DNA of 64,000 bases, from the NCBI GenBank assembly GCA_024690885.1, contig JAILOI010000060.1, positions 1 through 64,000 on the forward strand, written 5' to 3'. This DNA comes from Lachnospiraceae bacterium. GTDB lineage: Bacteria > Bacillota > Clostridia > Lachnospirales > Lachnospiraceae. Within the stretch, counting starts at the first letter, position 1; every line of letters begins with the position of its first letter. The translations under genes were made by a program, and so were the position numbers. Below the pieces are notes generated by a model, which did not search any database, was not told the origin of the DNA, and saw only the letters and a list, made by a program, of their open reading frames with translations. Positions 5,331 to 63,319 of the stretch are shown here, in pieces.

Positions 5331-5359
5331 ACTATAGCACGGCCCCACCCCATTGTAAA
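5331..5359 (-). promoter_or_regulatory. Putative sigma-A promoter for the DUF2520-panBCD operon: TTTACA-N17-TATAGT
   Basis: Minus strand TTTACA (5354-5359), 17-nt spacer, TATAGT (5331-5336). Confidence 0.55.
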
Positions 5360-5959
5360 CGTCAGATTTGTCCCGGCCCCGCCGACCGCCTCCCTCCCTT
5401 GCGCCAAGGTTTGGTGCTTGCGCAATGATTTTCTAAGCATCCCATGCCCATACGATATAAGTCGTGTGTTCTTTACACGTTTTACAATTCTTCTCAGGCG
5501 GTTTGTCTCCCGCTGACATTGGTTTTATATTGGTCCCTGCCATCCATGTGTTCCCGGTTTTTTGTGACTTGGAGTGAGCCGTAGAAAAATAAAAGTATGG
5601 TTTGCAACAGCTGCGGGGATGACGCGCCAAGGATGGCGCGGAAAGCAAAATCGAAGAACGGATTCGATTATTTTGCGACCCCGCAGCAGCAAACCATGCT
5701 TTGTAATTTTTCTAGGCGAATGGAACCGGAGCAAAAAACCCGGGGACATATGTGGTGGCAGGGACGAAGAATTTATATTGTCAGCGGTGTGGACAAACAG
5801 CCTGCTCGAATGGTAAAAGCGAGTAAAGGACACACGAGACGTATGGGCATCCGGGATGCAAGAAAATGGATTGCGCGCCCACAAGAACCTCGGCGCAAGG
5901 GAGGGAGGCGGCCGGCGGGGCCAGGGGAATTGAGATGCATGCTAGATGGGGTGGGGCCG
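5340..5959. repeat. Very long imperfect palindrome (about 620 nt) with a branched tip; candidate large structured ncRNA or palindromic element
   Basis: Arms read by eye: 5340-5353 vs 5946-5959 (14 bp perfect); 5375-5405 vs 5892-5922 (30/31); 5420-5454 vs 5840-5876; 5462-5490 vs 5808-5837; about 5530-5564 vs 5732-5767; apex GTATGGTTTGC / GCAAACCATGC enclosing two sub-hairpins. Confidence 0.85.
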
Positions 5960-5970
5960 GGCAGAAAGAA

Positions 5971-5992
5971 AAGCACCCCCGGATGGAGGTGC
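5971..5992 (-). terminator. Intrinsic terminator downstream of the YitT-family gene
   Basis: Minus strand AGCACCTCCATCCGGGGGTGCT followed by TTTTCTTTCT. Confidence 0.7.
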
Positions 5993-6002
5993 TAAGAGAG
6001 CG

Positions 6003-6863
6003 TTAATCTTTGGGGCGCATGTAGAAGGAGCCCTGAAGTTGTTCGGTACGGATGACGTTGACGAAGGCGTTTTCATCGATGTTGTCGATGATTTTGAGGA
6101 CCTTGTTGATTTCTTCCGCGTTGATGACGGTATAAAGCATGCGGCGGCGTGCACCCTGGTAGGTGCCCTGGGCGTCCAGTTGGGTGGCACCGTGGTTGGT
6201 GCGTTTGTAGAGGGCCCTTGCAATTTCCTCCGGATAGTCTGTGACAACGAAGAGGGTCATCTTCTTGTAGTGCATGTAACGGGCATTTAAAATCTGGGTG
6301 GTTACAAACTGGAAGATAATGGAGTAGAGGGCTTTGTCCCATCCGAAGAGGATACCGTCTACTGCAAGAATCACCGCGTTAAATAACAGCACATAGTTCC
6401 AGGCGTCTTTGTGGAACTTCTCCGATACGTAGATGGAGATGAAGTCCGTTCCACCGCTGGTGGCGCCGGCGATGAGACAAAGCATAATGGCAACGCCATT
6501 GATCATACCACCGAAGATGCTGATTAACAGGATGTCCTGGGTAATCACATAGCTTGGGATGACGTCCGTTAGGATGGCAACCGTACCGATGGTTACACAG
6601 GAGAAGATGGTGAACTTTTTGCCGATTTTACGATAGCTTAAGATAATCGGAAAAAGGTTGGTTAACAAGTATAGTGGTGCATAGGGCATATTATAATTGA
6701 AGAATGTGCGGCTGATTTGTTGGATTAACAACACAAAACCTGCAAAGCCACCGGGCAATAGCCCTCCGGTATGAGCAAAGGTATTGTAGTTAATTGCCAT
6801 CATCGTACCGGCAAGAACACATAGAAAAACTCTACGTCCATCAGATTTTACAGTTTGAATCAA
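6003..6863 (-). CDS. YitT family membrane protein (DUF161 + DUF2179)
   Basis: NYNTFAHTGGLLPGGFAGFVLLIQQ ... GATSGGTDFISIYVSEKF ... C-terminal DUF2179-like domain. Confidence 0.9.
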   Translation of the reverse strand: MIQTVKSDGRRVFLCVLAGTMMAINYNTFAHTGGLLPGGFAGFVLLIQQISRTFFNYNMPYAPLYLLTNLFPIILSYRKIGKKFTIFSCVTIGTVAILTDVIPSYVITQDILLISIFGGMINGVAIMLCLIAGATSGGTDFISIYVSEKFHKDAWNYVLLFNAVILAVDGILFGWDKALYSIIFQFVTTQILNARYMHYKKMTLFVVTDYPEEIARALYKRTNHGATQLDAQGTYQGARRRMLYTVINAEEINKVLKIIDNIDENAFVNVIRTEQLQGSFYMRPKD

Positions 6864-63083: not shown

Positions 63084-63120
63084 AAAAAAACGGGAAACTT
63101 CCGATTGGAAAGTTTCCCGT
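63084..63120 (-). terminator. TPP riboswitch expression-platform terminator
   Basis: ACGGGAAACTTTCCAATCGGAAGTTTCCCGTTTTTTT. Confidence 0.85.
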
Positions 63121-63130
63121 ATTGCTACAC

Positions 63131-63217
63131 CTACATCCCTACGTTGGCATTATCCAAATCAGGTTTCTGGGTCGAAGTTCGTTTACTTCCTCTCAGCCTG
63201 CCCTACAAGCTCCCCGT
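63131..63217 (-). ncRNA. TPP riboswitch (THI element)
   Basis: ACGGGGAGC...GGCTGAGAGG...GACCCAGAAACCTGATTTGGATAATGCCAACGTAGGGA, upstream of thiSFGHE. Confidence 0.96.
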
Positions 63218-63319
63218 GATTCAATTTTCTTTTTTGTTATACATCCCTTTTTCTCAAAAAACAATACTTCTCTCATGGCTTTTCACATTGTTTTCAAGAA
63301 AAACCATTGCCGGTATTGT

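Follow-up and report, generated by a model that had tools for sequence, protein, structure and literature searches.

The window, a stretch of 64,000 nucleotides from a Lachnospiraceae bacterium (contig JAILOI010000060.1 of assembly GCA_024690885.1), carries at positions 5337-5962 an imperfect palindrome of 626 bp with inverted arms and a branched apex. Among named genomes, those nearest to it are MAGs of Lachnospiraceae, one of them from yak rumen. In the left flank lies a pan motif RNA (RF01749, 5234-5324, minus strand, 40.2 bits against a cut-off of 36.2). The promoter of the pan leader, TTTACA-17-TATAGT (5331-5359, minus strand), matches the consensus at 10 of 12 positions; it belongs to the host flank and its -35 region is common to relatives. 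In the right flank the intrinsic terminator of a YitT-family gene (Pfam PF02588) is located at 5972-5993 on the minus strand. Elsewhere in the window a TPP riboswitch was detected at 63119-63226 (minus strand, 64 bits).

The extent of the palindrome was set by its inverted arms and its fold. The outermost inverted repeat spans 17 nt (left 5337-5353, right 5946-5962, 94% match), followed inwards by outer arms of 40 nt (left 5372-5411, right 5886-5925, 93% match) and by two pairs of inner inverted arms (5530-5542/5756-5768 and 5553-5564/5732-5743). Folded as RNA, the plus strand of the palindrome reaches a minimum free energy of -387.9 kcal/mol compared with -213 for shuffled sequences (z -19.2), and the minus strand -355.9 (z -18.6). 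The giant imperfect palindrome with branched apex that a sequence-only reading of this locus had described is thus present, and both strands fold strongly. The same reading had regarded the ORFs in this region as by-products of the palindrome, in agreement with the Pfam search of the two longest ones, which gave no match and led us to reject a coding reading.

No named RNA class had been recognized for the palindrome. However, the Rfam search identifies its apex as the TwoAYGGAY RNA motif (RF01731) at 5569-5726 on the plus strand, scoring 48.2 bits where the gathering score is 43, with a match that spans the full model from 1 to 168. A second match, to MIR2646 at 5532-5766 on the minus strand, reached only 29.9 bits (cut-off 245) and was dismissed as an artefact of the long hairpin. 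TwoAYGGAY was described by Weinberg et al. 2010 (PMC2864571), and the window apex, a member by score, shows two GGA hairpins upon a common stem. This stem (5' side 5592-5605, 3' side 5689-5702, plus strand, 14 nt, 93%) supports a first hairpin, GCGCC[AAGGAT]GGCGC at 5624-5639 (plus strand), whose loop, according to the sequence and the family consensus, has six bases including the GGA and is closed by a C-G pair. In the second hairpin, AATCGAAGAACGGATTCGATT at 5649-5669 (plus strand, from sequence and fold), the window copy holds the GGA in a larger loop, whereas the loops of the family read A-N-GGA-N. Of the candidate new large structured RNA, the structured part stands, as the apex forms a structured RNA motif in which the stems covary, but the novelty does not, since for the apex this RNA is already known as RF01731.

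The element is not restricted to this locus. A search of the window's own genome with RF01731 yielded at least 26 scattered copies, and BLAST with the element as query detected further copies in the same genome, with homology confined to about 5422-5887; the outer arms (5372-5411/5886-5925) are not common to other copies. Near-complete relatives contain 49, 25 and 10 copies, the 49 belonging to a one-contig genome, and the RF01731 motif is carried by 34 of 395 sampled genomes of the order. Several copies of the own genome are located at contig ends, as is usual for repeats in short-read assemblies, and a recent inverted duplication or assembly artefact had been named from the start as what would undo the proposal. 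This explanation is scarcely credible: the 49 copies in a complete one-contig genome exclude assembly as the cause, in most genomes the arms pair within their own copy although they agree between copies at only about 55%, and an Rfam family above its cut-off sits at the palindrome centre. We regard the palindrome, its RF01731 apex and the existence of the repeat family as near certain.

Comparison with related genomes suggests that copies come and go. In the congeners G003 and G001 the alignment ends at window position 5339 and restarts at 6003, with 28 bp between; at this junction the pan promoter region is present and the palindrome is absent. In G002 and a named relative (L169) transporter genes are found at the corresponding junction instead. 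Similarly, at the site of one copy of genome G458 the spacer measures 84 bp in G392 compared with 514 bp. The copies therefore appear to be gained or lost between related species like mobile DNA, and the mobile palindrome envisaged by the sequence-only reading is supported by the 26 own copies, the 49 in the complete relative and the absence from the corresponding junction in close relatives. We consider mobility likely. By eye no target-site duplication was seen at the ends of the window and G458 elements; the junctions in relatives are too diverged for base-level calls. In G458 the sequences CACAACGTAAGG and CCGTACTAT recur immediately outside the palindrome (both were picked by best match and are hence partly circular); CACAACGTAAGG with at most one mismatch occurs 21 times in this genome and, in a comparison by hand, adjoins TwoAYGGAY elements in 16 cases. 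Plasmid and phage collections gave no DNA match to the element, and an origin from either was rejected. The exact 31-base apex pattern had zero matches in viral or genome contigs, which says little as the pattern is strict.

At the window locus part of the left arm is host DNA. The stretch ATTGTAAACGTCAGATTT within this arm is host promoter DNA partly common to congeners, and since such DNA covers positions 5352-5369, the inserted element itself probably begins near 5370. The left side of the outermost inverted repeat (5337-5353/5946-5962) falls into the -35/-10 spacer of the pan promoter, and the spacer sequence of relatives is unrelated.

By fold-based extent the copies are mostly palindromic and vary in length from about 225 to 825 bp: palindromes of about 225 bp were found in G007, G025 and G088, of about 290-390 bp in G040 and G045, and of about 800 bp in G068, while those of the own genome reach 825 bp. 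As long palindromes are known to endanger genome stability, it is unusual to find tens of copies measuring 600-800 bp. Over the innermost 30-150 nt, the identity of a left arm to the reverse-complemented right arm of the same copy is 0.72-0.87, but to those of other copies in the same genome it is 0.53-0.67, and left arms compared between copies agree at only 0.55-0.75. Since the match to the own arm exceeds that to other copies, complementarity is maintained while the sequence drifts. If selection acted on the RNA, G-U rather than A-C mismatches should be left on the transcribed strand, and an excess of G-U compatible differences had been taken as an argument for a transcribed plus strand. 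This asymmetry holds for the window copy, whose outer arms contain 10 G-U and 4 A-C mismatches, but not for the family, where with all elements oriented by their GGA hairpins the ratio is 415:390 (p 0.40). The argument for plus-strand transcription thus fails across copies. On the same ratio strand-specific RNA selection on the arms was rejected. A general strand skew of the arms was rejected as well, the skew being only lineage-specific. Because there is no G-U strand bias, the arms behave like DNA palindromes, which favours a DNA-level process or constraint.

TwoAYGGAY has been an orphan motif since 2010 and is typed as cis-regulatory. The Rfam model comprises 168 positions under this type, whereas here the motif forms the tip of a palindrome of 225-825 bp that occurs in tens of copies in random orientation. 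The new point is that the model covers only the tip of a larger palindrome; in the open-access literature searched, the palindromic, multicopy nature of TwoAYGGAY was not found described. A large palindrome that is multicopy and probably mobile has the known motif as its conserved tip, and this alters what the motif can be. Among 152 elements with ORFs on both sides, 95 lie between tandem ORFs (48 in sense and 47 in antisense orientation), while 35 are flanked by convergent and 22 by divergent ORFs. With an orientation as random as 48:47 the Rfam type 'Cis-reg' is not supported, which is a flaw of the label and not of the membership in RF01731. Promoters were not enriched at the elements in eight genomes, and a promoter of the element's own was rejected on these grounds.

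A structured element retained for a local effect on the host, as a two-way transcription terminator or a stabiliser of mRNA 3'-ends, would fit the own genome, where 9 of 18 copies are situated between convergent genes and where the T- and A-tracts of terminators make up the palindrome base. Across genomes, however, tandem, convergent and divergent sites are all found (95, 35 and 22), and for a terminator the conserved GGA loops and the hundreds of paired bases would be superfluous, so that we hold this explanation to be improbable. Insertion only after terminators was also considered; it holds for several own copies and was rejected for the family in the 152-element context.

The apical hairpins were analysed by ungapped hairpin statistics. 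In the loop A-N-GGA-N, where GGA served as the search key and the other positions did not, the A is present in 261 of 262 hairpins and the closing C-G pair in 255 of 262. Across 209 distinct sequence windows the share of Watson-Crick pairs at stem positions 2-7 is 63-94%, compared with 28-46% after shuffling, and the stems covary; they lean weakly towards G-U over A-C (33:17). The motif CANGGANG occurs on the model strand in 185 of 190 elements and on the opposite strand in 2, and 106 of the 190 contain it twice. The spacing of the two apical motifs is 28-31 nt.

CsrA is a motility regulator, and FliW is its usual antagonist in these bacteria. In the own genome csrA is encoded at G000:C49:2425-2583 (E 1.2e-25). 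Among relatives CsrA is encoded in 18 of 18 carriers compared with 93 of 146 genomes overall (hypergeometric 1.5e-4, uncorrected for relatedness), and in the order in 34 of 34 carriers compared with 228 of 395 (hypergeometric 2.5e-9, by genus 6.8e-5, again uncorrected for relatedness). Flagellin is likewise encoded in 34 of 34 carriers; the co-occurrence is therefore not specific to CsrA, and the link may be with motility generally. Within the relatives set FliW was found in every carrier but one, whose genome is incomplete. The CsrA SELEX consensus is RUACARGGAUGU, and CsrA bridges sites at distances of 10-63 nt (PMC7652899). Compared with these data the apical motif is near the consensus and its 28-31 nt spacing falls inside the bridging range; the exact RUACARGGAUGU is present in only 9 of 190 elements. 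Binding of CsrA has already been suggested for TwoAYGGAY (PMC4333381), and highly stable hairpins may impede it (PMC7652899). By their sequence the apex hairpins look like CsrA binding sites. Whether the apex RNA binds CsrA we judge to be evenly balanced, and a decoy role of the element in the cell seems less likely than not.

The explanation we prefer, with about equal confidence for and against, is a palindromic, MITE-like DNA element that is interspersed in genomes of flagellated Lachnospirales, has TwoAYGGAY as its apex and bears a putative CsrA decoy. The copies would be spread by an enzyme that acts either on their conserved ends or on the single-stranded DNA hairpin, and such mobilisation would also explain why the arms remain complementary although neither strand shows a G-U bias. 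When the GGA strand of a copy is transcribed, one CsrA dimer would be bound by both apical A-N-GGA-N hairpins, which lie about 29 nt from each other, and the apex RNA would then act as a CsrA decoy whose long stem would protect it or be trimmed by RNase III. Against this explanation count the lack of promoter enrichment, the equal co-occurrence of flagellin, the few exact SELEX matches, the possible hindrance by very stable hairpins, the presence of FliW, the larger second loop of the window copy and the target-site duplication that was not seen.

A rival explanation is a purely DNA-level palindrome, in which hairpins and stem would be recognized as single-stranded or cruciform DNA by a transposase or recombinase, comparable to REP hairpins or attC sites, and the GGA loops would be unrelated to CsrA. 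The arms without G-U strand bias, the random orientation to genes together with the promoter enrichment that was not found, the recurrent sequences just beyond the palindromes of G458 and the gains or losses among relatives are all in line with it. On the other hand, loop and closing pair closely fit a known RNA-binding protein on one strand only, CsrA is encoded in every carrier, and the apical stems weakly favour G-U over A-C (33:17). We assign to this alternative a substantial minority probability. In the preferred reading, should CsrA be bound and copy number shift flagellin, CsrA decoys would occur outside Gammaproteobacteria and be spread by a mobile repeat. It is unlikely that the family represents in addition a distinct class of mobile hairpin DNA, which would be conserved at its centre and not its ends, would have its arms rewritten per copy at the DNA level, possibly into the flanks (as in the pan promoter spacer), and would supply tens of putative CsrA-decoy RNAs in Firmicutes with FliW present.

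Several known systems resemble the element in part. Like the CsrA-sequestering sRNAs CsrB/CsrC and RsmX/Y/Z it has GGA in hairpin loops near the CsrA consensus in a genome that encodes CsrA; these sRNAs, however, have many GGA hairpins and one to three loci, whereas the element has two hairpins per copy, many loci and a putative RNA. The Csr sRNA system is moreover described as anticorrelated with FliW (PMC7652899), while TwoAYGGAY carriers also have FliW. REP and BIME elements, which are linked with RAYTs, are interspersed extragenic palindromes as well, are sometimes arranged in head-to-head pairs and are thought to be mobilised as hairpins (PMC3733652). They differ in that a REP measures 20-40 bp and carries a GTAG or CGTC tag; the element measures 225-825 bp and the tag is absent from the window and G458 consensus ends. 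With MITEs it shares being non-coding and multicopy, the inverted repeats and a position that varies between related species. Its inverted repeat, in contrast, reaches almost to the centre and varies per copy, the centre is the conserved part, and no target-site duplication was seen by eye at its ends, the junctions of relatives being highly diverged.

Head-to-head TwoAYGGAY pairs (minus then plus), a few hundred bases apart, are frequent in G088, G040 and G011 (loci L074, L075, L076, L077, L085 and L086). In 4 of the 49 copies that one genome contains, a group II intron lies antisense at an identical place within the TwoAYGGAY apex, on its left side (L250:about 400-2380, from G458:C1, as well as L238, L240 and L241), with Rfam matches to RF02001, RF01998 and domain 5 (RF00029); it seems to use the repeat as a target. 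Outside the window, contig G000:C49 combines csrA (2425-2583), fliW (2631-2987) and two TwoAYGGAY copies (9858 and 16105). Extra CsrA-like genes are present in several carriers, and at L100 (G045:C54:9000-13500) an open frame of 132 aa with a second, more distant CsrA-like domain has a TwoAYGGAY element at a distance of about 1.2 kb.
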